This document shows, one piece after another, positions 9,616 through 64,000 of a stretch of DNA of 64,000 bases. Made by a program: the position numbers and the translations under genes. The notes below the pieces were generated by a model. The model was not told the DNA's origin and ran no database searches. It saw nothing but the letters and a program-made list of their open reading frames with translations. Origin of the DNA: Rhizophagus irregularis (taxonomy: Eukaryota; Glomeromycota; Glomeromycetes; Glomerales; Glomeraceae); contig NC_089456.1 in the NCBI RefSeq assembly GCF_026210795.1, positions 2,668,501-2,732,500 of the forward strand. The letters are read 5' to 3'. Each line of letters starts with the position of its first letter. Position 1 is the first letter of the stretch.

Positions 9616-9659
9616 ATTGTAAATTTGAAAGTAAAGGGGGAGAGGTATTAAATTTTTAT

Positions 9660-9728
9660 TATTATTCCGAACTGGGTAAATTATACCAATTTTCGGAGTG
9701 ATGATTCCGATATTGTCGCACAATTCAT
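9660..9728 (-). promoter_or_regulatory. Conserved F-box upstream block
   Basis: Read on the minus strand, the block contains the core TTGTGCGACAATATCGGA, then ATCATCACTCCG, AAAATTGGTATAATTTACCC and an A-rich leader into the ATG. The same string stands upstream of the other F-box genes here, far better preserved than ordinary intergenic sequence. A TATAATTT run could serve as a TATA-like element. Confidence 0.65.
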
Positions 9729-9744
9729 GTGTAACATGTTTCAA

Positions 9745-9890
9745 TGTTTAGTTAGGATAATAATTTTTGTATAGGTTTGTTTTAGATAGGGCTGCACTAT
9801 GTTATAGTGTTTCGTTGTAAGCTGTTGGAAATGTGTTACCTTTAGATTGCGTTTTCTATGGTTTTCAATAAAGAGAGGTTTTTTTAAAAA
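9745..9890 (+). promoter_or_regulatory. Divergent cassette ending at AATAAA
   Basis: Directly beyond the promoter block, in the opposite direction, lies a repeated segment: GTTTTAGATAGG, GCACTATGTTAT, GTGTTACCTTTAG, then GGTTTTCAATAAA followed by a T run and an A run. Matching segments lie at the orphan copy (27.4-27.6 kb) and upstream of genes 6, 7 and 8. The AATAAA looks like a poly(A) signal for a short divergent transcript; no open frame is shared between copies. Confidence 0.45.
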
Positions 9891-19227: not shown

Positions 19228-19514
19228 TTTCTAAAATTTTTTATAGGGCTTCAGGCTAGAAGACTTCATTGACCCTTATTTTACAACCTGGCCCGAACCG
19301 GACTAAACCATTATTATATCAATTTGTTGTAAAAACAAAAAAAATCGACCAACGGGGTGATCAACTTAATTTTTACCACGTTAGTGATGTTACACACAAC
19401 GAATTGTGCAACAATATCGGTATAATTTACCCAGTTCGGCGTAACAATAAAAAATTTTTTTGTTACCTCTCTGATTTTTTTGTTACCTCTCTCCTTTTCA
19501 CTTTCAATTACAAT
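19228..19514 (+). promoter_or_regulatory. Upstream block of F-box gene 4
   Basis: Holds the shortened conserved core GAATTGTGCAACAATATCGG then TATAATTTACCCAGTTCGGC (19420-19440) and a pyrimidine leader. The phrase GATTTTTTTGTTACCTCTCT is partly duplicated just before the ATG. The long frame that continues upstream of the ATG lies in this block and is not conserved as protein. Confidence 0.55.
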
Positions 19515-21074: not shown

Positions 21075-21889
21075 TTATAAAGATGAATATCATATGTATG
21101 TTAACTGAATAATTAAATTTACTTTACTAAATTTATTTTTTACAATAAATTGTTTAATTATTTTTTTATTCATGACAATTTTAAAAATTTGAAATCCATT
21201 TTAGGAAATGAACATAGAGTTGGATGAATCCGTTCTGGTCCGGTGATTCCGGTCCGGTCCAGGACCACTTTTGGTCTAATCTTTATTATGATTATATGAT
21301 ATTAATAAAAATTAAAAATGAATCGATCCGAACTTGGTCGAAAAAACTGGTCCGTAATATTTTTCTATTGCCGCAGCTTAATTTCTAAATAATTATAATC
21401 TTACACAATTAGTAAACGAAAATTTAATGTAAAATAATTAATTCAATAAATTAAATAATTAAATAGAATAAATAAAATAAATAATATTATAAAAATTAAA
21501 TAAATGTTAAGTTCGTTAAATTTGTTAAGATGAATTTTAAATTAACATAATTATTTTTGCAGCGTCATCATTTTTCTACTAGTTTCTGGCTATTCCAGAA
21601 AAATCCAGACATGTGATTAATTTTCTAAAAATTTTTTATAGAGCTTCAGGCCTTATTTTACGACCCGGCCCGGCCCGGCCCGGACTATTATACCAATCTG
21701 TTGTAAATTGACCAACAGGTGACCGTGAGGTGATCAACTTAATTTTTACCACGTTAGTGACGTTACACAATTAATTGACACGAATTGTGCGACAATATCG
21801 GAATCATCACTCCAAAATTGGTATAATTTACCCAGTTCGCCCAGTTAAAAATTTAATACTTCTCCTCCTTTTACTTTCAAATTTACAAT
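21075..21889. other. Intergenic between F-box genes 4 and 5
   Basis: Contains the uninterrupted GGTCCGGTCC repeat (21230-21350), the AT-rich flank and, at 21785-21842, the full-length upstream core facing gene 5: TTGTGCGACAATATCGGA, ATCATCACTCC and TTGGTATAATTTACCC. This interval is the best empty-site reference for the insertions seen after gene 3. Confidence 0.6.
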
Positions 21890-23491
21890 ATGTCATGTTC
21901 AAAAATATTTTCAGGAGATTTACCTGAATTAACTTATGAAGTTATAAAATATTTTCAGAATGATTATTCAACTTTACATTCATGCATTTTAGTTAACAGA
22001 TTATGGTGTCGTTTAGCGATTCCATTATTGTGGGAAAATCCATTTTCAATTCCTACTGGAAACTATAATTTTATTAAAATTTACTCACATAATTCAAATA
22101 GTGACTTTAAAACAAAATTAATTGAATATAAAATTATCAATAGTAGTTCATTACCTTCGAATACACTGTTTAATTATCCTAGTTTGTTAAAATATTTGAA
22201 TATAAATAAGATTATTTTCTCTGTTGTGAGGTGGTTTGAAGCTACTATTAGAACTTCAAACCCTGAAAATGGATTAAATTTAGGATTTAATTTTAACAGA
22301 GATATATGTGTATCACTTTTTAAAATTTTCATTGAAAATGAAGTAAATTTACATACTCTTGAAATTGAGTTCTCAGATGTTACTCATATTTCTACATATT
22401 TTAATAATCTTAACAATATTTGTGAGTTAATTTTACAAAATACAAATTTCATTCACAATATTAGAAATATAAATCTTTTTATTAATAATTTATTTGATTC
22501 TTCATACAGCGATAATAATAAATATAAGTTAATTGAAAATCGTATATCACAAATAATTAATTTACAACAAAATCTTAAAAAAATTTTAATAGGTAGTAAT
22601 AGTTTTCCTTTATATCAATCATTATTATTATCAAAAGAATCTAATTGTTCAAATACTTTAAATACAATTACATTCTATAAAATCAATTTCAATTTTTCGA
22701 TCAATAATATATTGGAACAATTAAATGTTTTAGAATCTATTCATATCATTTATTGTTCTTTTAATAGTAATTTTGCTCAACAAATTATTAATTTAACCAA
22801 ACCATTTAAGTTGAAATCTTTACTTATAAATGAGAAACCACAAATTGAAGTATTGGGATTATTATTACAAAAATATGGTGATTATTTAGAAAATTTCGAG
22901 TATGTATTTAATCATGATTTATCATTAAATCAACAATTATTGGAATTAATCATAAAGTATTGTAAAAATATCAATTTTCCTTGTTTTAATATATATGAGA
23001 GACTGATTACTTATCAAATATTGAATTTAATTGAAAATATTAAACAAAATCTTAATTATCTTTCGATTAATATATGGTATGACTATAATGGAAAAGGAGG
23101 TAGTTCAACCATATTACAAAATTTAGGGCAAATCCTTCCTTCTAAATTGGAATATTTACTTTTGGGTCTTCATCATATTAAAGCAGATGATTTCAAAGTG
23201 TTTCTAAAAAATTCTCATGATACTTTTATCAAAAAATTATTGATCTATAACAGTCAAGGTCAGGATATTTTACCCCTTATTAAAAAATATATCATGAAAA
23301 AGAAAAGGGTTAGGTATTTGGCTATTAATAATTATTTCTATGAATCTACATTTGATAGATATGGTGATAATATTAAGGAATTGATTTCATTGAAAGATGA
23401 AGTGAAGGAATTTAGGTTATATAATATTGAAGTCCAGAGTTATTCTGGTTTAGTGATTGACATGCATAATTATATAAAGGAAATCAATTGA
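21890..23491 (+). CDS. F-box/LRR-like protein 5 (type A)
   Basis: An intact 533-residue frame starting MSCSKIFSGDLPELTYEVIK. The F-box at residues 8-50 is identical in most positions to gene 2. The leucine-rich body shows NTLNTITFYKINFNF, NVLESIHIIYC, KPFKLKSLLI, SKLEYLLLGL. The end is type A (KKLLIYNSQGQDILP, YIMKKKRVRYLAI, NYIKEIN), pairing it with genes 1 and 6. It is the last gene of the left array. Its 3' flank (23500-24100) reappears inverted after gene 6 (39600-40180), so genes 5 and 6 face each other across the central 16 kb. Confidence 0.85.
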   Translation: MSCSKIFSGDLPELTYEVIKYFQNDYSTLHSCILVNRLWCRLAIPLLWENPFSIPTGNYNFIKIYSHNSNSDFKTKLIEYKIINSSSLPSNTLFNYPSLLKYLNINKIIFSVVRWFEATIRTSNPENGLNLGFNFNRDICVSLFKIFIENEVNLHTLEIEFSDVTHISTYFNNLNNICELILQNTNFIHNIRNINLFINNLFDSSYSDNNKYKLIENRISQIINLQQNLKKILIGSNSFPLYQSLLLSKESNCSNTLNTITFYKINFNFSINNILEQLNVLESIHIIYCSFNSNFAQQIINLTKPFKLKSLLINEKPQIEVLGLLLQKYGDYLENFEYVFNHDLSLNQQLLELIIKYCKNINFPCFNIYERLITYQILNLIENIKQNLNYLSINIWYDYNGKGGSSTILQNLGQILPSKLEYLLLGLHHIKADDFKVFLKNSHDTFIKKLLIYNSQGQDILPLIKKYIMKKKRVRYLAINNYFYESTFDRYGDNIKELISLKDEVKEFRLYNIEVQSYSGLVIDMHNYIKEIN

Positions 23492-40188: not shown

Positions 40189-41736
40189 CTAATTAATTTC
40201 CTTTACATAATCACACGAGTTAATCAATAAACCAGAATAACTTTGGACTTCAATATTATATAGCTTAAATTCATTCACTTCATCTTCCAATGAAATCAAT
40301 TCCTTAACATTATCACTAAACGATAGTCGTAAAGATTCATTAATAGCCAAATATTTAACCCTTTTCTTTTTCATGATATATGTTTTAATAAGGGGCAAAA
40401 TACGCTGACCATGACTGTTATAGATCAATAATTTTTTAATAAAAGTACCCATAGAATTTCTTAGAAACACTTCAAAATCGTTTACTTTAATTTGAAAAAT
40501 ATTTAAACATAAATATTCTAGTTTAGAAGGAAGTGCTTGTCCTAAAATTTGTAATATTATTGAATTAGTACATCGAATTTCAGTATCATAAATATCATAA
40601 ATTATATTGAATGAAAGATAATTAAGATTTTGTTTAATATTTTCAATTAAATTGATTATTTGATAACTATTCTGTCGTTCAGTTCCATGAAAATCTAAAA
40701 ATTTGATATTTTTACAATATTTTGTTATTAATTCTAATATTTGTTGATTTGATGATGATGGTTCATCTCCAAAATTTTCTAAATATTCACCAGATTTTTG
40801 TAATAATAATTGAAATGATTCAATTTGTGATATTTCATTTGTAAATAAAGATTTCAACTTAAATGGTTTAGTTAAATCAATAATTTGTTGAGTAAAACTA
40901 TTATTTAAAGAATAGCAATAAAAGATATGAATAGATTCTAAGACATTTAATTGTTCAAATACTGTTTTTAGATTGTTAATCCCCTTAAAATCGACACAAT
41001 AGAAAATGATTGTATTTAAAGTATTTGAACAATTATAATCTTTTGATAATAATAATGATCGATACAAAGAAAATCTATCACTTATTAAAATTTTTTTAAG
41101 ATTTTGTTGTAAATTAATCATTTGCGATATACGATTTTTAATTACTGAATTTTCTTTATAATTGTAAACATAATAAAGATTTAAATTTCTAATATTGTGA
41201 ATGAAATTTGTATTTTTTAAAATTAACTCATCAAAAATAATACTAAAACATGTTTGATAACTTGAGATTTCAATTTCAAGAGTATGTAAATTTACTTCAT
41301 TTTCAATAAAAATTTTAAATAGTGATACACATATATCTGTCAATTTTTTTAAATCAGTTACTATATCTTCAGAGTTTGTAGTACTAGTAACAAGTTTATA
41401 CCACTTATCAACAGAGAAAATAAACTCATTTGTATTCAAATATTTTAAAAACCTGGGATAATTGAAAAGTATATTTGAATGTGATGATTTATTAATGATT
41501 TTATATTTATTTATTTTAAAATCATCATTTAAACTATGTAAGTAAATTTCAATAAAATTATAGTTTCCGGTATGTATTGAAAAAGGATTTTCCCATAATA
41601 ATGGAATCGCTAAACGACACCATAATCTGTTAACCAAAATGCATGAATGTAAAGTTGACAAGTCATTTTGAAAATATTTTATAACTTCATAAGTTAATTC
41701 AGTTAAATCTCCTGAAAATATTTTTGAACATGACAT
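40189..41736 (-). CDS. F-box/LRR-like protein 6 (type A)
   Basis: An intact 515-residue frame. The F-box carries DLTELTYEV (Thr in place of the usual Pro of L-P-E-L) and NDLSTLHSC, so this copy departs from the family exactly at the residue that opens the F-box. The body contains LHSLNDDF, NKSSHSNILFNYPRFLKYLN and TSTTNSEDI, which are shared almost word for word with the first half of gene 7. The end is type A (KKLLIYNSHGQRILPLIK, YIMKKKRVKYLAI, YVKEIN). The conserved upstream core lies at 41810-41840 (GGAGTGATGATTCCGATATT). Confidence 0.85.
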   Translation of the reverse strand: MSCSKIFSGDLTELTYEVIKYFQNDLSTLHSCILVNRLWCRLAIPLLWENPFSIHTGNYNFIEIYLHSLNDDFKINKYKIINKSSHSNILFNYPRFLKYLNTNEFIFSVDKWYKLVTSTTNSEDIVTDLKKLTDICVSLFKIFIENEVNLHTLEIEISSYQTCFSIIFDELILKNTNFIHNIRNLNLYYVYNYKENSVIKNRISQMINLQQNLKKILISDRFSLYRSLLLSKDYNCSNTLNTIIFYCVDFKGINNLKTVFEQLNVLESIHIFYCYSLNNSFTQQIIDLTKPFKLKSLFTNEISQIESFQLLLQKSGEYLENFGDEPSSSNQQILELITKYCKNIKFLDFHGTERQNSYQIINLIENIKQNLNYLSFNIIYDIYDTEIRCTNSIILQILGQALPSKLEYLCLNIFQIKVNDFEVFLRNSMGTFIKKLLIYNSHGQRILPLIKTYIMKKKRVKYLAINESLRLSFSDNVKELISLEDEVNEFKLYNIEVQSYSGLLINSCDYVKEIN

Positions 41737-41799
41737 ATTTTAATTGAATGTGAAAGGAAGAAGTGTCAAAATTTTATTATTACGCCAAACTACTAGATA

Positions 41800-42951: not shown

Positions 42952-44463
42952 CTAATCAATATTCTTTATATAGTTAATAATGTCTATAAATAAATCATTA
43001 TGATATCGAACTATAATATTATGTAACTTAAATTCCTTCACTTCATCTTTTAAATCAAATAAATTTATTCTATTTGTAGTATTTTTAATTGATAAATACT
43101 TGACTCTTCTTTCCTTCATAATATATTCTTTTGTATAATGTAAAATATCATCACTACCATGTTGTACTATTAACAATTTATTGATAAAAGTATCTTGAGA
43201 ATTTTCTAAGAAAAATCTAAAATCACTTCCTTTAATAGTAAGAAAAAAACTCATGTATTCTAATTTAGAAGGGAGAACTTGTCCCAGATTTTGTAATATG
43301 ATTGAACAATCAATATGAAAATTGATATTACTAATTAAAAGATAATTAAGATTTTGTTTAATATTTTCAATTAAATTGAACATTTGATAAACAATCCGAC
43401 CTCTATATCCATTAAAATGAAGAAAATTGATATTTTTACAATATTTTGCAATTAATTCTAATGATTGTTGATTTAATGATGGATCGGGACGAAAACTATA
43501 CTCGAAATTTTCTATATAATCACCAGATTTTTGTAATAATTGTTGTAATGATTCAATTTGTAATTCCTCATTTATAAATAAAGATTTCAACTTAAATGGT
43601 TTTGTTAAATTAATAATTTGTTGAGTAAAACCAGTATTTAAAGAACCACCATAAAAGATATGAACGGATTTTAAAACATTTAATTGTTCAAATATTTTTT
43701 GTAGGTTGTTAATACCCTTAAAATCGACATTATGGAAAACGATTGTATTTAAAGTATTTGAACAATTATAATCTTTTGATAATAATAATGATCGATACAA
43801 AGAAAATCTATCACTTATTAAAATTTTTTTAAGATTTTGTTGTAAATTAATCATTTGCGATATACGATCTTTAATTACTGAATTTTCTTCATAATTGTAA
43901 ACATTATAAAGATTTAAATTTCTAATATTGTGAATGAAATTTGTATTTTTTAAAATTAACTCATCAAGAATAATACCAAAACATGTTTGATAATAATTAC
44001 TTTGGAATTCAATTTCAAGAGTATGTAAATTTACTTCATTTTCAATAAAAATTTTAAATAGTAATACACATATATCTGTCAATTTTTTTATATCTTCAGA
44101 GTTTGTAGTACTAGTAACAAGTTTAGACCACTTATCAACAGAGAAAATAAACTCATTTGTATTCAAATATTTTAAAAACCTGGGATAATTGAATAGTATA
44201 TTTGAATGTGATGATTTATTAATGATCTTATATTTATTTGTTATAAAATCATCATTTAAACTATGTAAGTAAATTTCAATAAAATTATAGTTTTCGGTAT
44301 GTATTGAAAATGGATTTTCCCATAATAATGGAATCGATAAACGACACCATAATCTGTTAACTAAAATGCATGAATGTAAAGTTGAATAATCATTCTGAAA
44401 ATATTTCATAATTTTGAAAGTTAATTCGGGCAAATCTCCTGAAAATATTTTTGAACATGACAT
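42952..44463 (-). CDS. F-box/LRR-like protein 7 (A/B chimera)
   Basis: An intact 503-residue frame. Residues 1 to about 235 follow gene 6 (LHSLNDDF, NKSSHSNILFNYPRFLKYLN, KLVTSTTNSEDI, LISDRFSLYRSLLLSKDYN), while the remainder follows the type B genes (GSLNTGFTQQIINLTKPF, FINKLLIVQHGSDDILHYTK, YIMKERRVKYLSI, NYIKNID). The switch lies near 43.7 kb around NTLNTIVF...DFKGINNL, a stretch both types share. The F-box has LTFKIMKYF instead of LTYEVIKYF. The upstream core at 44518-44556 is shortened (TTCGGAATGTTAACTCCGAT, then ATTGTCGCACAATTCG). The chimera suggests unequal crossing-over or gene conversion inside the array. Confidence 0.85.
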   Translation of the reverse strand: MSCSKIFSGDLPELTFKIMKYFQNDYSTLHSCILVNRLWCRLSIPLLWENPFSIHTENYNFIEIYLHSLNDDFITNKYKIINKSSHSNILFNYPRFLKYLNTNEFIFSVDKWSKLVTSTTNSEDIKKLTDICVLLFKIFIENEVNLHTLEIEFQSNYYQTCFGIILDELILKNTNFIHNIRNLNLYNVYNYEENSVIKDRISQMINLQQNLKKILISDRFSLYRSLLLSKDYNCSNTLNTIVFHNVDFKGINNLQKIFEQLNVLKSVHIFYGGSLNTGFTQQIINLTKPFKLKSLFINEELQIESLQQLLQKSGDYIENFEYSFRPDPSLNQQSLELIAKYCKNINFLHFNGYRGRIVYQMFNLIENIKQNLNYLLISNINFHIDCSIILQNLGQVLPSKLEYMSFFLTIKGSDFRFFLENSQDTFINKLLIVQHGSDDILHYTKEYIMKERRVKYLSIKNTTNRINLFDLKDEVKEFKLHNIIVRYHNDLFIDIINYIKNID

Positions 44464-45269
44464 ATCGTAAATGAAGAGAGAAAAAGAGAAATATTTGTGT
44501 ATTCACATTTTTGCTTTAAATTTTCGGAATGTTAACTCCGATATTGTCGCACAATTCGTGTCAATTAATTAATTGTGTGTAATGTGTAAATGTGTAATGT
44601 GTAAGGATCATCATTACTTGTAATGATTACTGCCTAATTCTGGTCAGAATTATAATTGACCAAGAGTTAACAAACTATGGTTTCTTAAATTTTAATTTAA
44701 ATAAAATTTTTTTTGAAAATATCTAAGCCATAGATCTTTTGGTATAAGAAAATCTTAATTGTGTGTAACACGTCTCAATAATTAGGCGCAGTTTTAATAG
44801 TATAGTTTTGCTTTAGATAAGTTGCACTATCATATTATTGCTTTATTGTATAAATGTATACTATGGTTTTCAATAAAGACATTTTTTTTTAAAAAAAAAG
44901 AAAAGAAACTGTTATTAAGCTTGAAAACCTATAAAAAATTTTTTATAAAATTTGTCCACATATCTGAATTATCCTTGAATAAAAACTAAAAAAGTGATCA
45001 TTTATTGGAGTCTTTCCGGAAAATTTTTACATTTATGGTACATTGTCACACGCTGGATGGACATGATTACTGCACGCAAAATTTTTTTAAAGTTCATACT
45101 AATCTACCTTCACCCATTCTTCTTTTCCAACCTTTTTATTTTGACTATTAAATTAATAAATTATTCATATTTTATTAGTAATTACGGTAAATTAATGTAT
45201 TTATTTTATCAAAATGACGTGACACTGTAAAATAATTACGTTAATTTAAAATTCATCTTAACTAATTTA
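44464..45269. promoter_or_regulatory. Upstream block, cassette and flank, gene 7
   Basis: The conserved core is at 44518-44556. The cassette follows with AATAATTAGGCGCAGTTTTA (44777 on), TTTGCTTTAGATAAGTTGCA and GGTTTTCAATAAA (44867-44879). Then comes the CATTGTCACACGCTGGATGG block near 45040. No gene is supported; the frame at 44994-45230 is not conserved in sister units. Confidence 0.5.
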
Positions 45270-47569: not shown

Positions 47570-49130
47570 TTAATCGATATTCTTTATATAGTCATTAACG
47601 GAAATATTTAAATCATTACGATGTCGAACTATAATATTATGTAACTTAAATTCCTTCACTTCATCTTTCAAATCAAATAAATTTATTCTATTTTTAGTAT
47701 TTTCAACTGCTAAATACTTAACTCTTCTTTCCTTCATAATATATTCCTTTATATAATGTAAAATATCTTCACTACCTTTTTGTATTACTAACAATTCATT
47801 GACAAAAGTATCTTGAGAATTTTCTAAGAATAATCTAAAATCACTTTCTTTAATAATAAGAGCCAAACTTATGTATTCTAATTTAGAAGGGAGAGCTTGT
47901 CCTAGATTTTGTAATATGATTGAACTACCTTCAAAATTACCATTTGGAGAATTACTATTATATTTATTTATATCAATTAAAAGATAATTAAGATTTTGTT
48001 TGATATTTTCAATCAAATTGAACATTTGATAAACAATCTCACTTTCTTGTCCATTAAAATTAAGAAAATTGATATTTTTACAATATTTTGCAATTAATTC
48101 TAATAATTGTTGATTTAATGATAAATCGAGACGATACCCGAAATTTTCTATATAACCACCAGATTTTTGTAATAATTGTTGTAATGATTTAATCTCTATT
48201 AGTACCTTACTTATAAATAAAGATTTCAACTTAAACGGTTTTGTTAAATTAATAATTTGTTGAGTAAATTCAGTATTTAAAGAATTACAATAAAAGATAT
48301 GAACAGATTCTAAAACATTTAATTGTTCAAATACTGTTTTTAGATTATTAATACCTTTAAAATCGCAATAATAGAAAACGATTGTATTTAAAGTATTTGA
48401 ACAATTATAATCCTTTGATAAAAATAATGATTGACATAAAAGAAAACCGGGCCGATTTATTAAAATTTTTTTAAGATTTTGTTGCAAATTAATTATTTGT
48501 GATATACTATCTATAATTTGAGTAATATATTTATTATTATCTATAATTTGAAGTTTTAAATTTTTAATATTGTGAATGAAATTTGTATTTTGTAAAATTA
48601 ACTCAAGAATGTTACTAGGATAAATAGCCTCATAAATGATACTTGCACTCTCAATTTCAAGAGTATGTAAAGTTACTTCATTTTCGATAAATATTGTAAA
48701 TAGTGATACACATATATCAATTATTATGTAATAATCAATTAAGTATGATATATTTTCGAAGTCTACCTTTTTAATAGGAGATCCAAACCATCTCTGGATA
48801 GAAAATATAAACTCATATGTGTTCAAATATTTTAAAAAACTAGGATAATTGAAAAGTGTACTCGAAGGTAATGAATTATTAATAACTTTATATTTATAAA
48901 ATGTTGTTTTAAGATCATCATTTATATAAAGTAAGTAAATTTCGATATAATTATGGTTTTTTGGCATAAATTGAAAAAGGATTTTCCCATAATAATGGAA
49001 TCGCTAAACGACACCATAATCTGTTAACCAAAATGCAGGAATATAAGGTTGAATAATCATTCTGTAAAAAATTTATAATTTTATATGTTAATTCAGGCAA
49101 ATCTCCTGAAAATATTTTTGAACATGCCAT
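47570..49130 (-). pseudogene. F-box/LRR-like gene 8, frame break after F-box
   Basis: From ATG 49130 the sequence encodes MACSKIFSGDLPELTYKIIN, then LVNRLWCRLAIPLLWENPF and SIYAKKP before a stop. The remaining 465-residue frame (47570-48967, opening PKNHNYIEIYLLYINDDLK) is the intact type B body ending NDYIKNID. The two parts are in different frames because of an extra A in a six-A run (plus-strand T run at 48957-48962; gene 3 has five at the same place). A 58-residue F-box stub or, from an internal ATG, an F-box-less LRR protein could be made. The body has no other stop, so the break is recent or a homopolymer error in the assembly. Confidence 0.8.
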
Positions 49131-50531: not shown

Positions 50532-52064
50532 CTAATCTGTATTCACTATAAAGTCATGAGCGTTAATATATAACTTTACATAATTTTGAACTATAATATT
50601 ATGTAACTTGAATTCCTTCACTTCATTTTTCAAATCATACAATTCTATAGAATTTTTCAATTTCATGAAAGCTAAATATTTGATTCTTTTTTCCTTCATA
50701 ATATATTCCTTTATATAATGTAAAATATCATCCCAACCTCTTTGAATTATTATCAATTTATTAATAACAATATCTTGAGAATCTTCTAAGAATATCATAA
50801 AATCATTTACTTTAATAAAAAGATTTAAACTTAAGTATTCTAATTTAGAAGGGAGAGCTCTTCCTAAATCTTGTAATAAGGTTGAATTTTTTCTAATTTT
50901 AACACTTGATGGATCATCATTGATTGAAAGATAATTAAGATTATGTTTAATATTTTCAGTTAAACTGGATATTTGAAAAGCAATCTGACTATCAAATCTA
51001 AGAAATTTGATATTTTTACAATAATTTATAACTGATTCAAATATTTGTTGTTCAAGTTCTAATTTACAACTATTTCCAAATTCAATATTTTCTAAATAAC
51101 AACCAGATTTTTGTAATAATAATAGTAATGATTCATCAGTATTTGATTCCGACTTTTCATCATTCATAAATAAAGATTTTAATTTTAATGGTTTAGTTAA
51201 ATTAATAATTTGTTGAATAAAACTATTATTTAAAAAAGAGCAATAAATAATATGAACGGATTCTAAAGCATTTAATTGCTCAAATATTTTATCTAAATAG
51301 GTTATAAATTTAAAATTGACGCAATAGAAAATGATTTTATTTAAGGAATTTGAACAATTAGAATCTTTTGATATTAATAATGATTGATATATAGGTAAAT
51401 TACAATAACATATTAAAATTTTTTTTAGATTTTTATGTAAATTAATAATTTGTGATAAAAGATTTTTAGCTCCTATATTTCCAAAGTAATCACTAACATA
51501 AAGATTTAAATTGCTAATATTTAAAATGAAATTTGTATTTTTTAAAATTAACTCAAGAATTTTATCAAAACATGTAAGATCAAAATTACGGTAACCCGAG
51601 ACATTAATTTCAAGAGTATACAAATTTATTTCATTTTCAATAAAAATTTTAAATAATGGTACACATATATCAGTCAAGTTATTAGGACGAGCTACTGTAT
51701 TTTTTTTAATAGCAACTTCAAACCATCTCTCAACATATAAAATAAACGTGTTTATATTCAAAAATTTTAAAAACTTGAGATAATTGAACAGTAGATTCGA
51801 AGGTAATGAATTATTAATAATTTTATATTCATTTAATTTTGTTTTAAGATCATCATCTAAATTATTTAGGTAAATTTTAATAAAATTATAGTTTCCGGTA
51901 CCAATTGAAAAAGGGTTTTCCCATAATAATGGAATCGCTAAACGACACCATAATCTATTAACTAAAATGCATGAATGTAAGGTTGAATAATCATTCTGAA
52001 AATAATTTATAATTTTATATGTTAATTCAGGTAAATCTCCTGAAAATATTTTTGAACATGTCAT
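50532..52064 (-). CDS. F-box/LRR-like protein 9, most divergent copy
   Basis: An intact 510-residue frame from ATG 52064 (MTCSKIFSGDLPELTYKIIN); a 14-codon in-frame extension upstream is leader sequence. The F-box at residues 8-50 is standard, but the body is the most divergent of the nine (LEQQIFESVINYCKNIKFLR, SLTENIKHNLNYLSIND). The C-terminus follows type B in outline (LHYIKEYIMKEKRIKYLAF) yet ends DFIVNTD. The upstream core (52130-52170) is degraded to TATCCGATTTTGTTGCACAA, with TTGTGCGACATG just beyond it. It is the outermost gene on the right, bordering the glycosyltransferase. Confidence 0.85.
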   Translation of the reverse strand: MTCSKIFSGDLPELTYKIINYFQNDYSTLHSCILVNRLWCRLAIPLLWENPFSIGTGNYNFIKIYLNNLDDDLKTKLNEYKIINNSLPSNLLFNYLKFLKFLNINTFILYVERWFEVAIKKNTVARPNNLTDICVPLFKIFIENEINLYTLEINVSGYRNFDLTCFDKILELILKNTNFILNISNLNLYVSDYFGNIGAKNLLSQIINLHKNLKKILICYCNLPIYQSLLISKDSNCSNSLNKIIFYCVNFKFITYLDKIFEQLNALESVHIIYCSFLNNSFIQQIINLTKPLKLKSLFMNDEKSESNTDESLLLLLQKSGCYLENIEFGNSCKLELEQQIFESVINYCKNIKFLRFDSQIAFQISSLTENIKHNLNYLSINDDPSSVKIRKNSTLLQDLGRALPSKLEYLSLNLFIKVNDFMIFLEDSQDIVINKLIIIQRGWDDILHYIKEYIMKEKRIKYLAFMKLKNSIELYDLKNEVKEFKLHNIIVQNYVKLYINAHDFIVNTD

Positions 52065-52435
52065 ATTGAAAATGAAAAGGAGAGAGGTAACAAAAAATTT
52101 TTTCATTGTTACGCTGAACTGGGTAAATTATATCCGATTTTGTTGCACAATTAATTGTGCGACATGCCTCAATAATCAGGCGCAGTTTTAACAATTATAA
52201 GTATAAGAGACATGTGATTTCAGGGTCTCCATTGGCCAAATACGTTTTTCCGATTAAATTATCTGATCGTAAACGCCAATAAAAACATGTCCTATTTAAA
52301 ATATATGTATCAAAGAATTTAATAATTAAAATTTTTTTTATTAAAAAAAAAAATGTATATATATATATATATTATTTACTATAAAAAATACAAAATTTAT
52401 AAAATAATTATTCAAATTATGAAATCAAAAAATGG

Positions 52436-54459
52436 TTATTCTCTTTTTGATTTTCGATCATCGGACGAAGGATTCATTAATAAAAATCTAAATAATTTAA
52501 TTAATTTAACTACAATAAACCCGATAATACTAAGAATGATGATTAATAAAATTGCAAAAATATCAAGATTATTTGCTCTAATAATTCCCATCCTAGTATC
52601 AGCAGGGAACCATTCCTTTAAAAAGTCATTATTAAAATCTTCTACAAAAGTACTACTATGTAACATATATTCAATCAAATCAGCAGCTCTAAACTTTCTC
52701 TTACTATTAATTTTAGCTAAAACTTTCATTCTTTCTGAATTTTTCTTTACTTTCTCATCCTTTAATAATGAATCCATTTTATTTAAAATGTCGTTAATAT
52801 CCAAATTATTTAAACTTAATGATGATGCTACACCAGCTGTAATCAATTTTTGTGCGTTACCTATCTGATCACCAGCATGTGGTAAAACTAACACAGGAGT
52901 ACCAGTATATAGAGTTTCATGAGAACTTCCTGCTCCTCCATGACTAACAAACAATTTCGTATTGGTATGATTAAGTACAGTGAATTGTGGAGCAAATTTT
53001 GTAATATGAATATGTGGATGTTCGTTATTTAGTATTGGTGAAGTTTGAACTTGTGTACCATCAGATAACTTTAATGTAGGATGGAAATTATCTTTTGATG
53101 TCTCAACTAATGCCCAAACTACGCCATCAACTATTTTTTTATTGATTGCTTCAATAAACGATTGTAAAAGTTTACTGTTGTTATCAGTGGTTGTAAAGAA
53201 ACGTGTACCAAAAGCTACATATAGAACGCGTTCATGCCCATTTATAAAATAAGAAAGTTCTGGTGAAAGTGGTGGATATTCTTCTGATAATATCGGTCCG
53301 ATGTCCTAAGAATGAAAAAAAGGGAAATTAATATTATCATTTTATCAAATTCCATAAATAGTATAGTAAAGAAGTAAATACTATCATTTACCTGAACATA
53401 CGGTGGTAAAGTCTGCGGTAGCTATAAGTAAGAAAAAAAAGTTTGATTTAAAAAAAAAAACTTCGCTTTTAATAAACCTAAACAATTTTACTATTAATAA
53501 TTTATTTATTAATAATTACCTCAAAACCGAAGAAAGTATCAATCAAAACTAAAGAGGATTTCACACCTCTTCCAAGAGCAATATTACCAGGTTCAATATT
53601 CAATTGTTTTCTTACATCATTTATTTGATTCATAATGCTATTAAATGAATAAATAAATAGTAAAGGTTGAATGAAATTACATCTAAATCTTTCCAAAATT
53701 GATGCATTTTCTAATGAAATGCTACAGCCGAACATCGGATCAGATTTATATGGCTTAGGATCCATTACTAAAATAAAATATGAAAATAGAAGAATATTAT
53801 TAATGATATAAAATAAAATAAAAAATTGGGAAAAAAAAATGTTTTGTAATTACTTCGAAGTCCTGAAGTGAATCCGACAACAGGTTTCTTTAGGGCGTGA
53901 GCAATGTCTATACAAGCATCATTTAGCAGTAAATCGCAAAAAAATAAGTCGGTATTATATTCTTCAGCAACACTTTTGTATATTTCATATACTCTTTCGT
54001 AGGATTTTGCGCCTAATTCCAAAAGTTTTGACATTTTATCAAAAGTAATTGCTTCGTTATTGACTTCAATTCCAATATCTCTCAAGCCTATTTTAGGACC
54101 TAATGAAATTTGCTTGATAGCTGGGTATTCTATTGATGTATCATTTTCTCCTGACGCTACTAAAATCACCTATACGGTATATTAAGAATGAAAAATATGA
54201 ATAAACCGATCCAAGATACGTTAAATAAACAAAAAATCCTTACATTGTAACCTCTTTCAACCAATATCGTAGCAATATCTAACATTGGTTTAACATGACT
54301 TCTTCCGCCAGGAAAAGAAGCAAACATAATATTTTTGGGTATGTTTGAGCGATCTATATCAACTCCTCTAGAAATATAGTTTTGTGTCGCAGTATTAGCA
54401 TTGACACATAATAATAGGAAAGGAACCAATAATAATAAAAGTGATTTTCTTTTAATCAT
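52436..54459 (-). CDS. UDP-glycosyltransferase, ER membrane type
   Basis: Five exons with GT-AG introns: 54244-54459, 53854-54169, 53520-53767, 53392-53421 (30 bases) and 52436-53305. They join in frame to 559 residues. The start MIKRKSLLLLLVPFLLLCVN is a signal peptide. Next comes IMFASFPGGRSHVKPMLDIA, the acceptor-side motif with the catalytic His position of the GT1 family. The donor-sugar loop lies in the last exon: KFAPQFTVLNH, FVSHGGAGSSHETLYTG, PVLVLPHAGDQIGNAQ, a PSPG-like signature. Near the C-terminus is a membrane helix (IFAILLIIILSIIGFIVVKL) and a short cytosolic tail ending KSKRE, a KxKxx ER-retrieval signal. It most likely transfers a sugar from a UDP donor to a sterol, lipid or other small hydrophobic molecule in the ER lumen; the acceptor is unknown. 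Confidence 0.9.
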
Positions 54460-57355
54460 TTTTTGTTGACTTTAATAATGAATATTAACTATAGGAACTA
54501 TAGGATATATATATATTTTCTTACAAAAAATTTTATTAAAACATCGACGGATAAATTTACGGAATCTTCGATTTTTGTATTTAATTAAATTTACATTTAT
54601 AGTAAAAGTTGTTTGAGAATCATGCATCTTTATTTGGTTTACAAAAATGGAATAGAGAAAAATTTTACTTTAAGGCAAGTATTTATCCGATAGCCACAGT
54701 CATGTGCCGAAAATCATCTATTTAAATTCGGTAAATCGATAATCAACGGTACGGAATGATTTAGCCGATGTATGCAATTAAAATAAGGTTCATAATCGTT
54801 TACGTAATTTTTTTTTCACCAGTACGACAGAACCACGTGTATTGTTTGTTTATCTTTTTTCTTTTTATCATTGTTCAATGAGCAAAGTTTTTTAAAAAAA
54901 GAAAAAAGGTCAAATTTGAGGCGTACGTTGTGAGATTTTAGTCACGAGAATGTGAGATAAATCAATTCTGTACTGCATATGAATGGCGTATTCAAATTCG
55001 CAATTACACAATTACATTCATTTTTAATTTTATTAAGGATAGCGTATTGAGTGACCAAAATTGGTGAGAAAACAAAAAAAATCAAATGAATGAATAAATA
55101 AAATAAAAATAAAAATAAAATAAATCTCAATAATAAATCTCATTAAATGAATAAAATAAAATAAAAATAAATCTCAATAATTTATGAAAAAAAAATAAAA
55201 GTAAAAAACTCGCCCAAGAACTTAAACCTCGAACTACTTGAGTATGAGTCCAAACTTTAGCCAGTCGTTTTTTCTTAATCTGGAGGAAGAATAAAATTTT
55301 TTAATATCTTTGATTTTTTGATTAACGTTAATAAAAAAAAAAAGATTTTCAAAAAAAAAAATTTCTTTATTACAAAAATTTATTTTAATAAAAGAAATTC
55401 TCTTGCTCACAATACCAATTACGATCTAAAATTTGCTAGTAAAATCTAAATTTCATTTTATATCAGTTTTATATATAAAACAAAGCTTCACAATTCTTAA
55501 TCAAAAATTTCAAGGGTATTATATACGTATATGGGTATATCGTATATATATCATGTGGTTCCGGTCATTTGTTTAGGATTGTCTACATGGAAAATATTAA
55601 TAACCAATAAAATTCAAGACGCAAAATAATAAATTCATATTCGCAACTTCATAACTTAAACGAAACGAGACTTAATAATGGATTTTTAATAAATATTCGT
55701 GTCATACGATCTTTTTTTTTTTGAGGAATTGCTCATAATAATAAGAATTCCGAAGATTTTAAATTTAGATAATGAAGTTGAAGTTGGCGTGTAATTTTTA
55801 CTACAGAGATAAAATTAACACGTGATACGTAATACGCTTTAAAGAAAATGACGTCATTTCTGGCACATAAATGATAGAATTTCAATTAAACTTATTTTAT
55901 TTTGCATCGCTGTTCTGCATAAGTTATTTATATTTTAAACCCCAGAAATAAACCTCTATAAATTTATGAAATTTATGATCACATTTACAAAATAAATTAC
56001 ATTCACTAATTTAGAGGGTTGGAAAATTAATTTTGAGAAACATATTGTAACAATGTAACATGGTTGATTTCTTCTAACAATTCTCAACACATATTTGGAA
56101 TTTTTGCTATGACTACCATAGTTTTATAAATTATTAAAAGTAAATTAAACGCGAAAAAAACTTTGATATTCATTTTTCCAATTAGTTTAAAAAAGTTTAT
56201 TTAAGATATTATTAGCTTATATTATTGGTATTATATACATAGCATACGTACTTACGTAGTATAATTCAACTTTTTGTTCTTCCAATAAATATAAGATGGA
56301 TTACCACCAACTGTATAAAAAAAAGACGTTGTTCTAGTTTCACGTTGATTTATGTTGATAAAATTTTAACTTTTATAGATTTTAAAATGTAAATTCAAAA
56401 TAATCCGGTAAACATTTTATTATTATCGTTATTTATTCACTTCTTGTAATATACTTTGTTTTTTTATAAATTACGTAATCATCCCATGTTAAAGATGAAA
56501 TTTATGCAAAAGAGATCAAAATATTATTATTTAATAATTCATATGTATCATGTTTTTTCAATAATTTACCAGCGAAAATTAATTTTTGTTTTGCCTTCAA
56601 TAGTATACCTTCAATAGTAAGAATTTTCATTTTACTGTACCCGTTAATGTTTAACATTAATGTTTTAATAAATACACAGTTTCGTCAAAAAATTTGATCC
56701 TTCTACAATTACTATTTGTAATCTGATCCTAGTATTACTATTTTACATTGTTAGTTTTGTTAGTTGGAACTTTACCACCAAATAAATGAGGTATATTTCA
56801 TCCAATTGGTTAATTATTTCCTGAAAAAGCGTTATGAGAAATTAATTGACATCCCCTCTGTTTAATCATTAAGTTTGTTTAAATTCAGTTATTCTCTTTC
56901 TCCCTCAAATTTTTTAGCCAGAAAGGATGTTAGTTTGGAATGATTTAAATTATGTTTATTAATTAAATCTTTCTCTATTATATCTTTTTTTTAAAAAAAA
57001 AGGATGGGCAAATATAATAAGTAAGATTACCTGAATAAAAAAATCACTATGCATGTCAAACGAATTAATATTGTTTAAATTTTCTTATATTTCAATGAAC
57101 TTATAGCTCAGTAAAACATGAGTAGTTATTCCATAAAACCATGATAAAATAACAATACACATACTTATAATTCATATATAATACTTATGTTTATTATTTA
57201 TAAAACAACTACTAGTACTGTTACTAGTACTAATACTACAATGTAGGTAGGATAAAATTAAAATAAGCAAGAAAAAAGTGAATATGTAAAATAACATTAC
57301 AAATAAGACAAAAAAAGAACTCAAAGGAGAATGTAGATGATGATGAGTTTTAGGA
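54460..57355. other. Intergenic, no gene seen
   Basis: About 2.9 kb of AT-rich sequence. It has AATAAAATAAAAATAAATCTC-like short repeats at 55090-55200 and nothing with a conserved coding phrase. The minus-strand frame 54942-55130 is a hydrophobic artefact of those repeats. Confidence 0.5.
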
Positions 57356-58812
57356 TTAGTGGAGATTTTGATGTCTTATTTCTATGATATAATTTGAAAT
57401 ATTTCCAAATTGTGCGTTATGGAAATCATATATATGAGTAACCTGCTTGGCAATATCAAGAAAAGTATTCTTTATGTCAACTGATTCATTGCGCCATAAA
57501 ATGGATGCAATTGAAGAAATTGTACTTAGAGGTAAATTCAGTCCCTGGTTTTTAGCTCGTAGTAAACAAGCTTTTCGGTACGCTACAAAACCACTAAATC
57601 CACGAAATTTTCGATGTTTTGGTAAAACCCGTAAAAAATCAGTAAGATCAGGCGGAAACAATGGTCGAATTTGCAACGACAGTGACCGAATTTGGTTAGT
57701 AGGTCCTGACATGTTACTTAAAGCTTCATATACTTCATCAATATCTGGTCTTAAATCTGGATCACCATTCCAACATTTTTGATAAAGTTGTTGATATTCC
57801 AAAGGTGTACCTTCAACTGGTTTTTCTCTAAGATCAAGATAACTAATATGAGATCCTAATACAATTCGTGAATAACCGAGGAAAGGAGGGCGTCCGCTTG
57901 AAATTTCCCATAATAAAACACCTAAACTATAAATATCAGATTTTTTATCTTTTTTGTAATTGATAATCTTAAAAAGTTGTGGTTCATTATATTCAGCCAT
58001 TCCTAATCCATTAGCCGTTGAATTTGTTGAATTAGACGTAGATTCTGATAATTATTTAGATGTTCCAAAGTCTGCGATCATTAGTCTATTATTATCAACT
58101 AATATGTTTTTTGCATGCTAGAAAAAAAAAAATAAATAAATCAATAGGACTTATAGGAAAATAGGACACAATGCTTAAATTATTTTATATTACCAAATCT
58201 CTATGAATTATTTGTTCGGAATGTAAATATTTTAATCCACATACAATATCTAAGGACATCTGAATTTTATCACTCCATTGAAGAAATTTAAAACTATTTT
58301 TTAAATATTCTCTTAAATTTCCTTGATTAGCAAATTCTAATACCATTGCGTACTTATTTGATAAAGGTTCTAATATAAAATAAAATTAGTAAATTATTAA
58401 ATAAAAAATTTACGTGAAGTATATAAACCTTTTGAAATTCCAAAAAATTTATTTATGTTTTGATGAAAACTGGCTTTCTTTAAATTCTTTAACTAATAGT
58501 ACATAAATTATTTGATATAAAATTATGTAATTAAACTTAATTATAAGAATATTTCAAAATTTACACCTAATTATAATATTATAATAATATTACCTCTTTA
58601 ACAAACTTGTTCATACTATTTTCGTCAACTGAAGAATGATCTATAAGGGTCTTTAATGCTATTTTAATTCCATGACTTTTCCAATCTGCGCTTTCTACAA
58701 TTCCAAATGATCCTTCTCCAACATTTTTCACACAACTGAACTCATTATATTCAACATAATGTATATCACCATCATTTATTTTCATATCAATCCATTCATT
58801 AAATGACGTCAT
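57356..58812 (-). pseudogene. TKL kinase fused to HMG box, one in-frame stop
   Basis: Exons 58594-58812, 58429-58492, 58194-58369 and 57356-58117 join in frame to 406 codons. The N-lobe has VGEGSFGIVESADW and IALKTL; the catalytic loop HRDL|HAKN is split by an intron; then come DFGTS, KKSDIYSLGVLLWEISSGRP and LRPDIDEVYEAL. Codon 175 is TAA (58052-58054) where the sister gene at 61.3 kb has CAA in DFGASKQLSES; otherwise the frame is clean. Directly after the kinase domain, in the same frame, residues about 325-387 read RKFRGFSGFVAYRKACLLRA, NQGLNLPLSTISSIASILWR, NESVDIKNTFLDIAKQ. This is a MATA-type HMG box, preceded by LFPPDLTDFLRVLPK as is usual for Rhizophagus HMG proteins (from memory). 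The sister gene has no HMG box. An internal ATG (57712) could start a separate 118-residue HMG protein. Confidence 0.75.
57416..57604 (-). other. HMG-box (MATA-type) domain
   Basis: Within the kinase reading frame. Support: the F-x-x-YRK near the first helix, the central ISxxAS..W..E pattern and the following K..F..IA, which together define the L-shaped three-helix DNA-binding fold. No close basic N-terminal wing is seen beyond HRKFR. HMG assignment is by motif recognition and needs a profile search to be firm. Confidence 0.65.
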
Positions 58813-58986: not shown

Positions 58987-61169
58987 ACACAAGTTATTAT
59001 TTGTTTTTCACTTATATTAGATATATTAAGTTAGACATTTTATTTTTTTCTACTTTAAGAGCTTTAAAATTTTCAATACCGATATTCAGCGATTTCCGGA
59101 ATTTTCCGAAATAAATTTATATATATCAAATTATTATATTGCAGCGATTACAATGATCTGCACAACAGACAATTTGTGTCTCATAAATTTTACAATAAAT
59201 CGCTGCTTGTCATTCCAGTGATTTAACTGAACACGTGCTTTATTTGCTGCGCATATTTATCATATTTCTAAATTTATTGCAGTTTTCAGATTTTTGTGTG
59301 TGCTGTGATTACTAGGTGATTTATAATTACAGGACAATTGCCGGACAAATTGTTCAGTTTTTGTCCAGTAATCATCTTGTAATTAATTTTTTTACTGAGT
59401 AATTTGCATGTGAAGCAGGATTCTGAAAGCAGCGATAATAGAATTTTAATTTCTTGTCATTATTTAAAATGTCAATTTAACACCACACCCACATCCATTA
59501 ATATAATAGACGAACGATCATCTTTATATTCTTTCTGCTATAATTGCATAAGAAAATGAGCATTATGACACTATCGCAAATGAAGATTTTTAATGCATTT
59601 TTAGCTGAGGCCACTATTTAATAATTGTATCAATATAAATAAAAATGAATCACAAGGTTAATTTAAAGTTATTATTTATTGTTTACTTGATTACGTCAAT
59701 ATTTTAATAATAAATACTTTTAAAATAATTTATAAATTTCAATTATACTCAATTTTATTACGAAATATTTTGTATATCAATTGTATTTTTTCCTTTTTTC
59801 TCCTAAATGATTATATCGTAATTAAGAACTAGATCAGGAAAAATGGAAAAATTGGGTGTATTATTAGTATTTTAATCTAACCATAATTCCCAAAAAATCT
59901 ATTGTTTAGTATAGACGAAACCAAGTTATTTTTTTAGAAAGGAAATCACCATTTTTTAATTTATTCTTTTCAGTTCCCTTTTTGACATTTAAAATTGAAC
60001 GAAGAGAATAGTTTTAAAATATTGCTTTGATAATTTACATCGAAAATGATCAGCATCCCTAAAATCATCGCTTTCATCCAAATAAACTTTAAATAAGCTT
60101 TTCAATCACCGCTTTCATATATGTTAATAATGATGTCTCTTTAATCTATTTTATTATCTTCCCTAATCTAAACATTTTTTGTTTTCAAAAAAAAAAGAGA
60201 TGATTAATATGAAAACGAGGAGTCAACTATATGATTACAACTATGATAGTATATCTATTGAAAAAAACGTAAGTTAATTATACGAGGATGGATTTACTGC
60301 GCCAGATGGGGATGATTAAACGATATGTTTACCTCATTTACATTATGTATCCATAAAAGAAAAACTTACGGGGAGTATTGTTCCATAAAAGTATTTCATA
60401 TTTTATCTTATCGCAATTAAGAAAAAAATATATATATAATATAATAACATTTAAAGATTACGTAATAAATCGAAAATAATTATTTTTTTTATTAGAATTC
60501 TTTCTAAAAGTATAAACAAAAAATTTTGAAATTAACCTTGTGATTCGGCTTTGTCTTTATATTTAGTGCGATTATTACTGACACAATGGCTTCCGCTAAA
60601 AAAATGCATTAAAATCATCATTTGAAAAAGTGATCATTTTTTTCTGCAAATTATCTCAAAAGGAGAAAGAGGAGAATATTAAAAAGGGTACTAAAAATAA
60701 TGCCAAAAATACATATAAAGATCAAATTCTAGGCTTTTATCAAATTAGAAAATGCCTCAGAAAATTTAAACCATAGACCTTTTCTTTAAATCAAATGTTA
60801 TCTTTGTTTATCGAACGTCACGGTTAATATGCGCATAAGGCAAATAAAGCACGTGTTCAATTTAAATAATTTGAGTAACAATTTATTGTAAATTTATGTG
60901 TCACAAATTTTTGTAGGTTTTCTATTGTACAAATCGTTGTATTACCAAAAAAAAATTAGTTTTGTGATACAAACAAAAATACATATACCGGGAAATTCCG
61001 GAGGTCGCAAGATATTGTTATTTGAAAATTTTAAAACTCTTAAAGCAGGAAAAAAATAAATAAAAAGTCTAACCTCCCATAATATTAGCAATGAAAAATT
61101 TACCATTATGAAAAAAAAAATAAAAATGATAAATGATAGTATAACGAATGATCAACAACTTACTCCTCG

Positions 61170-61206: not shown

Positions 61207-61301
61207 ATTAGATAATGATTTGCGTGTTACATCCTTGTTGGTTAAATATAAAAACCTTAAATTCAGGTAAATTTATAAAAAAAAAAAAATTCTTTCTAAC
61301 T

Positions 61302-62668
61302 ATGACGTCATTTAACGAATGGATTGATAAGATAAAAAGAAAAGATGGTGACATAGATTATATTGAATATAATGAGTTTAGCAATGTAAAAACGGTTGGG
61401 AAAGGAGCATTTGGAATTGTAGAAAGCGCAGATTGGAAAAGTTATGAAATTAAAGCAGCATTAAAGACTCTTATAAGTAATCCTACAATTGATGATTATG
61501 ATTTAAATAACTTTATTAAGGAGGTAATTATTATTTTTATTATTATATTTATTCGAAAATAATCTAAAAATTTAAAATAATTTTTTTAGTTGGAGAGTTT
61601 AAAAAAAGTCAGTTTTCATCCGAACGTAATTGGATTTTATGGAATTACAAAAGGTTAAATATTTACTTATAATTTTTATAAAATTTAACCTTTAATTTAT
61701 TAATTGTATTTTATTTTTAGAGCCCTTATCAAATAAATATATAATGGTGTTAGAATATGCTAATCAAGGAAATTTAAGAGAATATTTAAAAAATAATTTT
61801 AAATTTCTTAAATGGAGTGATAAAATTCAGATGGCCTTGGATATTGCACGTGGATTGAAATGTTTACATTTCAAAAATATAATTCATAGAGATTTGGTAA
61901 TATAATAATTTAAATTATCTTACCTTACTTTTTCTATTATTTTATTTATTTATTTATTTATTTTTTGATAGCATGCGAAAAACATATTAGTTAATAATAA
62001 TAGACTAATGATTACAGACTTTGGAGCATCTAAACAATTATCGGAATCTACGTCTAATTCAGCAAATTCAACGGCTAATGGATTGGGAATGCCTGAATAT
62101 AATGAACCACAACTTTTTAAGATTATTAATTACAAAAAAGATAAAAAGTCCGATATTTTTAGTTTGGGTGTTTTATTATGGGAAATTTCAAGCGGACGTC
62201 CTCCTTTTCCTGGCTATCCACGAAATGTACTAGGTTCTCATATTAGTTATCATAATCTTAGAGAAAACCCAATTTATGGTAATCCCCAAGAATATCAACA
62301 ACTTTATCAGGAATGTTGGGATAGCGAACCAAAGTTAAGACCCGATATTGAAAAAGTATATGAAACTTTAAGTCAACTAAGTCAAATTTCATTAAGTAAG
62401 TTTAATTTATCATCAAGGATTCTCCGTCTACTACATTTAGTAATATATTTATTTACATATTTATTTATATTTATTTATTTCGCCACCAATTACTATTTAT
62501 AGGAGAATCTTCACATAAACCTAATGGTTTCACAGAAGAAGCCTTAAAAAATTGTAAGTTATATATTAATTTTATATTTAAAATAATATAATACTTGACT
62601 AATTAATAACTAATAATGTTATAGGGTGTAAGTTATGCGTGGTCTACATTTCTGTTATTTATATATAA
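61302..62668 (+). CDS. TKL protein kinase
   Basis: Exons 61302-61523, 61590-61653, 61721-61896, 61972-62395 and 62503-62553, and probably 62625-62668, give about 326 residues in frame. ATG 61302 (MTSFNEWIDKI) is chosen because the sister gene starts identically; the frame is open 29 codons further upstream. Kinase features: glycine loop VGKGAFGIVESADW, AALKTL with the ATP-binding Lys, HRDLHAKN catalytic loop across an intron, DFGASKQLSES, KKSDIFSLGVLLWEISSGRP and LRPDIEKVYETL. All residues needed for phosphotransfer are present. The family is tyrosine-kinase-like and presumably phosphorylates Ser/Thr; substrate unknown. Unlike the sister, it ends shortly after the kinase domain (ESSHKPNGFTEEALKN, then WCKLC). 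The last exon is the least certain. Confidence 0.82.
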
Positions 62669-63223: not shown

Positions 63224-64000
63224 ATTTGGAAAAAGTGGAAATGCAATTATGGATGAATTTATTCTTAAAAAAAATTTAAAATGGATTCCTTTTAAAAAAT
63301 TTAAAAATATTAAACATCTTTACGAAAGTGAAGTAAGTACTAGCTTCAAAGCTATTTTGTTAAATAATAATGGAGATAAAGAAGTGATGCTTAAATGTCC
63401 TAGTAATTTAAATGAAAATTTGTATGAATTTTTAGATAAAGTATGATAGTATATTATTTAATTTTTTTTTTAATCTAAATTATAATTTATTTATGCTAAT
63501 ATTTATTGTTATTTTTTATAGTTGGAATTTCATGAAAATTGCTTAAATTCAAATAATATTATTAATCTTTATGGATGTACAAAAGATCCAGATACTTTGA
63601 AATACATGGCAATAATGGATTATGCAAATAAGGGTAATTTACATGGAAGCTTAACAAAAATAATTAAATATAATTGGAAACAAAAATTATATATGTTGTA
63701 CCAAATTATTTCTGGACTGAGTGAAATACATAAACAAAGTATTATTCATTGTGATCTTCATGGTGCCAGTATTTTAATTCATAAAGATAAAGAAGATGAA
63801 GAAGATAAAGTTTATATTAGCGATTTTGAAATATGTCAGCCTGTAAAACCTTTTTTGAAAAAAGATAGTATTTATGGTGTTTTACCATTTATGGCACCTG
63901 AAGTTTTTATGCACGAATCTTATACTCCAGCTAGTGACATATATAGTTTTTCTATCATTATGTGGGAATTTACATCCGGAGTTCGACCATTTGATGGTAG
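63224..64000 (+). CDS. Predicted pseudokinase (TKL-like), partial
   Basis: Exon 63224-63440, entered after TATAG, reads FGKSGNAIMDEFILKKNLKW, then IPFKKFKNIKHLYESEVSTS and MLKCPS. Exon 63522-64000 continues with INLYGCTKDPDTLKYMAIMD, IHCDLHGASILI, ISDFEICQP, MAPEVF and DIYSFSIIMWEFTSGVRPFD and runs off the window. The first in-frame Met is 63249, but the SGNxxxDEFI phrase normally follows further N-terminal exons, so the start lies upstream. Key residues are altered: no glycine loop, HCDLHGAS where HRDLHxGN is usual (catalytic Asn replaced by Ser), and DFE for DFG. The C-lobe structure is well kept with no stops, which suggests a maintained scaffold rather than random decay. Confidence 0.72.

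Follow-up and report, generated by a model that had tools for sequence, protein, structure and literature searches.

Does the genome of Rhizophagus irregularis encode a protein in which a tyrosine-kinase-like (TKL) kinase is joined to a MATA-type HMG box? The window, i.e. the whole stretch of DNA that was analysed (64,000 bases; G+C 25.6%, zero N), contained several kinase genes, F-box-like ORFs and introns that are short and AT-rich, all of which fits an arbuscular mycorrhizal fungus (AMF), and for the minus-strand interval 57356-58812 the original prediction had placed a kinase and an HMG box in one reading frame. If functional, such a fusion would let a kinase signal act directly on gene control, in fungi with very large kinase and HMG-box families, most members of which have no assigned role. 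According to passages of the respective papers, tyrosine-kinase-like genes are expanded in R. irregularis and AMF (PMC4219462), one R. irregularis assembly has 2,533 kinase genes (PMC10234402), G. rosea has more than 100 HMG-box factors (PMC4771724), the SexM-like HMG genes of R. irregularis are multi-copy and highly diverse (PMC3834313), and HMG genes are induced on co-inoculation of isolates (PMC7490403). With both families so large in these fungi, a kinase and an HMG gene are likely to be found as neighbours.

The minus-strand kinase consisted of four exons (58812-57356) separated by three GT-AG introns, the ends of which were placed by inspection (Table 1). The joined exons carried IALK, HRDLHAKN and ADFG; the Lys of VAIK, HRD and DFG are hallmark motifs of kinases. 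With X placed at an internal stop (codon 175), PF07714 matched the whole kinase domain at 167.3 bits (cut-off 23.1; residues 28-286), and the sister kinase located nearby was matched at 170.9 bits. Exon 1 alone scored 18.3 bits, under the cut-off, and became part of the 167.3-bit match once the exons were joined; an ORF at 58188-58385, which holds exon 3, scored 50.4 bits. Apart from codon 175, neither a frameshift nor a second stop was seen in the kinase, and the minus-strand kinase otherwise looks intact. The PF07714 match and the published work on AMF kinases suggest a kinase of the TKL type.

Table 1. Positions of the features of the kinase-HMG locus, of the sister kinase and of the look-alike ORF array in the window
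Feature	Position	Strand	Basis or remark
Kinase exon 1, coding for the N-lobe with the glycine loop and the region of the catalytic Lys	58594..58812	-	Joined-exon reading
Kinase exon 2	58429..58492	-	64 nt, same as sister exon 2
GT-AG introns flanking exon 2	58493-58593, 58370-58428	-	Inspection
Kinase exon 3, ending at HRDL	58194..58369	-	Joined-exon reading
Last exon: HAKNIL...DFG, in-frame stop, remainder of C-lobe, HMG-like segment, final stop	57356..58117	-	Frame translation
In-frame TAA, codon 175	58052..58054	-	Six codons past codon 169, the Asp of DFG; the sister has a sense codon here (DNA alignment)
Kinase C-lobe 3' of the stop, 113 codons, open and kinase-like	57713..58051	-	PF07714, dN/dS, composition
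Final aligned base in the local DNA comparison with the sister kinase (62373 there)	57716	-	Local-alignment end, not base-exact
118-codon ORF from ATG 57712, holding the HMG-like segment; could be a free-standing gene	57359..57712	-	Translation, DNA alignment
Putative HMG-box core, gapless to residues 2-55 of a hand-typed MATA-HMG consensus	57443..57604	-	Pairwise alignment; Pfam sub-threshold
Upstream duplication block, pairing with 60826-61073 (69.5% identity)	59030..59257	-	DNA alignment
Upstream duplication block, pairing with 60512-60637 (75.6% identity)	59565..59679	-	DNA alignment
Sister kinase exon 1	61302..61523	+	Joined-exon reading
Sister kinase exon 2	61590..61653	+	Joined-exon reading
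Sister kinase exon 3	61721..61896	+	Joined-exon reading
Sister last exon, open to 62502, common to the minus-strand copy only up to 62373, without HMG	61972..62502	+	DNA alignment, translation; tail may be spliced
Look-alike array ORFs	8020-9747, 11871-13475, 40189-41739, 42952-44502, 47570-49003, 50532-52127	-	By eye
Look-alike array ORFs	14347-15945, 19260-21074, 21857-23491	+	By eye

When the joined minus-strand exons were translated, codon 175 and codon 407 proved to be stops, the former lying in the activation loop. The kinase reading frame was thus broken through the activation loop and the C-lobe, and the frame from kinase start to HMG end was broken at 58052-58054. Of the single reading frame originally predicted for 57356-58812, what stood was a stop-free stretch of 231 codons (58051-57359), which starts at 58051 because the preceding codon is the TAA, and which holds LRPDIDEVYEAL, FVAYRK and ISSIAS..W..E; its kinase part matched PF07714 at 39.9 bits (E = 4e-10). 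Since neither GT nor GC occurred between the DFG codons and the TAA, any intron that removes the stop would also take at least part of DFG. Candidate introns were enumerated with GT or GC donors in exons 3-4 only, an AG acceptor past the stop and at most 500 bases from the donor, a length of at least 40 bases, and the frame kept to the end. This gave 36 frame-keeping introns (32 GT and 4 GC), four of which kept HRD and none DFG, and splice repair of the stop was therefore rejected; one of the four HRD-keeping introns uses the normal exon-3 donor (58193 to 57968). With the TAA in place and DFG lost in all 36 cases, a catalytic kinase-HMG protein is not expected by ordinary decoding, and on translation the sequence as read is predicted to encode none. 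The proposal that a kinase joined directly to a DNA-binding domain links signalling to transcription here finds no support in this sequence, given the same two observations.

A non-catalytic product might still be made, either by starting at an in-frame internal ATG at codon 193 or by skipping the DFG stretch (58193 to 57968), which would give a C-lobe-HMG protein or a DFG-less pseudokinase-HMG scaffold on DNA. Besides the ATG itself, the GT-AG skip from the normal exon-3 donor holds the frame through the HMG part, and the C-lobe past the stop is conserved. However, products of this kind require an unusual start or an unsupported splice, and as 36 frame-keeping candidates were found in about 600 bases, it is unsurprising that one of them uses the normal donor; we consider such products quite improbable.

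The minus-strand kinase was compared with the sister, which, as originally claimed, lies about 2.5 kb away and lacks the HMG part. The two kinase ATGs were 2,490 bases apart (61302 vs 58812), with the genes diverging head to head, and, one additional codon in exon 1 of the sister aside, the first three exons were equal in length in both copies. The copies were alike at the DNA level over 58825-57716 and sister 61289-62373 (81%), a similarity that ended at the tail of the kinase domain, and the kinase and two upstream blocks paired in the same inverted order, indicating an inverted duplication of the gene plus upstream DNA. When the HMG segment was used in tblastn against the window, it found itself, and the next best match had an E value of 3.0. 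Past 62373, the sister frame stays open to 62502 and has no HMG similarity. Judged by eye, the sister tail at 62373-62620 (+) may be spliced: the sequence GTAAGT near 62396 could serve as a donor and the AG that precedes GAGAATCTTCACAT as an acceptor, which would give a short hydrophilic exon. From two copies, either may carry the ancestral 3' end, and the fusion may have arisen after the duplication or been lost in the sister.

Comparison of the two copies by the Nei-Gojobori method over 292 aligned codons, the last five of which lie beyond the end of DNA similarity, gave a dS of 0.29 and a dN of 0.137. The resulting ratio of 0.47 also fits one free and one constrained copy, as the comparison is unpolarised and involves two copies alone. 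The ratio was 0.50 before the stop and 0.44 after, i.e. not raised 3' of the stop. When the sister kinase was left to decay neutrally in simulations, 0.145 substitutions per site (half the synonymous divergence) produced a mean of 7.3 stops, and 1 of 400 runs ended with at most one stop; with 0.03 substitutions per site, 46% of the runs did so. As neutral decay at 0.145 rarely leaves so few stops, the stop is recent or newly tolerated. The kinase copy was probably under constraint for the greater part of its existence; its stop is recent, allele-specific or an error, three options that we leave unranked.

The similar dN/dS before and after the stop also fits an intact natural protein, with an error or a rare allele in the sequence at hand. 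A functional kinase-HMG fusion would follow if the stop were an assembly base error or an isolate allele, intact alleles then giving a protein of about 406 residues, kinase first and HMG box second. Consistent with this are the fact that both parts share an exon and, from 58051 to 57356, a frame, the single stop and lack of any frameshift in the joined kinase exons, the high PF07714 score with the stop masked and the dN/dS that is not raised past the stop. Against it stands, first of all, the stop in the sequence as read. In addition, a kinase-HMG protein was not named in the open-access titles and abstract starts among the matches listed, nor in the passages of the five papers cited above. 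Together with the evidence on the tail and its composition described below, this leaves the fusion unlikely, albeit with a chance large enough to be kept in mind. In its fuller form, too, we regard it as unlikely: intact alleles would make one polypeptide of a kinase followed by a mating-type-like HMG box, the kinase itself binding DNA, and the allele sequenced here would be a knock-out that arose naturally.

The tail had originally been read by eye as a motif-complete HMG box. A hand-typed MATA-HMG consensus aligned with the segment over 54 residues without a gap, with 15 identities and 30 positives (E = 9e-8 in a single comparison). The consensus itself matched PF00505 at 94.1 bits and, in the PDB, 62 sequences with E values of 0.001 or less, the best 60 of which were headed by chains of SRY, SOX, HMGB and ARS-binding factor 2. 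The segment score of 68 was reached by none of 20,000 shuffles, the maximum of which was 50, and the segment was the best of the 251 six-frame ORFs of at least 50 aa in the window, the runner-up having half its score (34). On the other hand, Pfam HMG_box (PF00505) scored 12.8, 14.4, 14.0 and 15.2 bits in four sub-ranges of the tail (cut-off 25.4; E 0.03-0.17), EF-hand_2 scored slightly above it every time on the same residues (13.7-16.2 bits), and neither family was listed at E up to 1 in a Pfam scan of the whole 406-residue reading. NCBIfam gave no match to the 118-residue tail, and phmmer against PDB sequences returned a single match (E = 1.3; chain KLLA0C11825p), none being named HMG. The position of RPxNAF, the N-terminal MATA-HMG motif that enters the minor groove, reads RGFSGF in the segment, and the C-terminal end matches poorly. 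With RGFSGF in place of RPxNAF, DNA binding by the predicted HMG segment is doubtful. Thus, the gapless match bears out part of the by-eye reading, and motif completeness does not hold; similarly, the profile search by which the exon translation was to be checked placed the kinase above its cut-off and the HMG box below, so that the result named beforehand as a refutation, no HMG match, was partly obtained.

For structure, a single-sequence model of the 118-residue tail was of low quality (mean pLDDT 53.2), with no HMG box among the best 50 of its 112 Foldseek matches in the PDB. An 82-residue model had a mean pLDDT of 76.9 and helices at residues 17-33, 40-52 and 58-81. Three helices in that sequence are in HMG order. 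Against the PDB (Foldseek, E up to 10) this model gave 29 matches, including six HMG boxes (2gzk_A, 9bvd_I, 6t7b_K, 6t7c_L, 9bvd_F and 6jrp_A) at E 4.2-7.4 and an rmsd of about 12 Å, none significant; against the BFVD viral library it gave 84 matches, none significant among the best 50 of the 84. When the alignments were placed side by side and judged by eye, the segment had the F, I-S and W positions in common with the SRY/SOX HMG boxes (2gzk, 9bvd and 6t7b), to which the Foldseek matches were weak; with the above E values and rmsd for the six HMG chains, the fold is a candidate at most. Structure prediction was rejected as proof of an HMG fold, given the poor 118-residue model and the lack of a significant Foldseek match for either model, and the structural support from these models is suggestive at most.

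It could be argued from these results that the resemblance to an HMG box is not homology and that the tail is an ORF of some other function or of none. The sub-threshold HMG_box score with EF-hand_2 slightly higher, the absence of HMG_box from the scan of the 406-residue reading, the single phmmer match and the insignificant Foldseek matches all agree with this, as does the codon score of the segment, which lies within the intergenic range. The gapless alignment, the behaviour of the consensus in the PDB and Pfam, the shuffles and the gap to the next ORF argue against it, as do the three helices in HMG order and the six HMG boxes among the 29 PDB matches, insignificant as each of these is. We therefore hold non-homology to be very improbable; the HMG similarity looks genuine, that is, a real but divergent homology as judged from the alignments.

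Careful examination of the junction revealed that three bases, AAC, separate 57716 from ATG 57712, so that a single codon lies between the end of similarity with the sister and the ATG. A separate start near ATG 57712, named beforehand as a finding that would refute the fusion, would fit the position of this ATG, and is suggested by position only. The protein alignment (LSNMS vs LSQLS in the sister) was still alike across the ATG, and Met 57712 may simply be part of the kinase tail. If an HMG gene does start at ATG 57712, the in-frame join would be a 1-in-3 chance, and the open linker therefore says little. If it does not, 24 open codons lead from 57712 to the HMG core, as many as stay open in 19% of intergenic windows. 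A stop-free join as proof of function was rejected, since similarity ends one codon ahead of the ATG and the frame match may cost 1 in 3; the join is weak evidence of a real fusion. An open stretch as long as the full 118 codons is seldom met by chance (2 of 27,120 overlapping intergenic windows of equal length), and this counts in favour of the fusion.

Composition of the two parts differed. In codon use, the kinase C-lobe resembled the other genes of the window with a score of 0.218, above all 914 intergenic windows, whereas the HMG part scored -0.051, matched or beaten by 13% of 908 intergenic windows. By synonymous codon score, the HMG segment fell below all 159 coding windows and the kinase C-lobe was at the 82nd percentile; these windows overlap and come from 14 other ORFs, nine of them F-box-like, and are thus a local yardstick. 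Third-position G+C of the HMG part was 0.229, in the top 2% of the 159 coding windows, an argument tempered by kinase exon 1, in which it was also high (0.219). These results suggest that the HMG and kinase parts may differ in origin, or that the HMG part has not long been coding in this setting. For a functional fusion, the departure of HMG codon usage from that of the kinase part is unfavourable, as are the sub-threshold Pfam score, the absence of HMG_box from the whole-protein scan at E up to 1 and the missing RPxNAF.

Taken together, the locus is probably a chimera formed by local duplication, in which the end of an inverted kinase duplication adjoins an HMG-box ORF, the kinase copy is interrupted, and no working kinase-HMG protein is made. 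At the breakpoint, the tail of the kinase would have come to lie next to the start of an HMG-box gene, and the open join would be a 1-in-3 accident of frame. The kinase would have been intact through most of its past, its stop being a recent gain. Translation from ATG 58812 would yield a 174-residue fragment that includes the N-lobe, HRD and DFG but lacks the C-lobe and the remainder of the activation loop; such a fragment should be inactive. A long tail after a stop can mark a message for decay, and the kinase message, with its long tail past the stop, may be marked in this way. The HMG part, if made, would come from ATG 57712 on a transcript of its own, as its position suggests. With a stop in the kinase and the HMG part made separately, nothing here would bring a kinase activity and DNA binding together in a single polypeptide. 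The case calls for caution, as locally duplicating families easily gain in-frame joins to adjacent ORFs, and an annotation that passed over the stop would list a kinase-transcription-factor fusion without any such protein being made.

In comparison with Glomeromycotina TKL kinases (PF07714), both copies were alike in having the glycine loop, Lys, HRD, DFG and C-lobe once the stop was masked, but the minus-strand copy differed in its activation-loop stop and HMG-like tail, neither of which the sister has. The segment resembled AMF MATA-HMG or SexM-type genes in its core, as compared via the hand-typed consensus, and differed from them in its sub-threshold Pfam score, RGFSGF, weak C-terminal match and attached kinase exon. 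A GTDB scan found one locus, in a planctomycete bin, that was 38% identical over residues 35-101, covering the kinase part only, and the IMG/VR scans found no relative. PF00505 had no match in the genome of the planctomycete bin or in 14 control genomes, a result that does not demonstrate absence.

Several other features of the window were observed. Rfam and tRNA scans of the 64,000 bases were empty. Nine long single-ORF genes on both strands, alike by eye, form a local gene-family array (Table 1), one member of which was scanned and gave a weak, sub-threshold F-box-like match. At 52436-54471 (-) lies a UDP-glucosyltransferase-like gene, apparently of several exons, with a PF00201 score of 74.4 bits on the piece 52439-53305. 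The C-terminal half of a kinase at 4349-5446 (+) is followed by a long acidic repeat tail of DVKDGE units, in a region where other frames and the antisense are open too. A third kinase-like gene, at about 63240-64000 (+), leaves the window; by eye, its HRD is HCD and its DFG region SDFE, and it looks like a pseudokinase.
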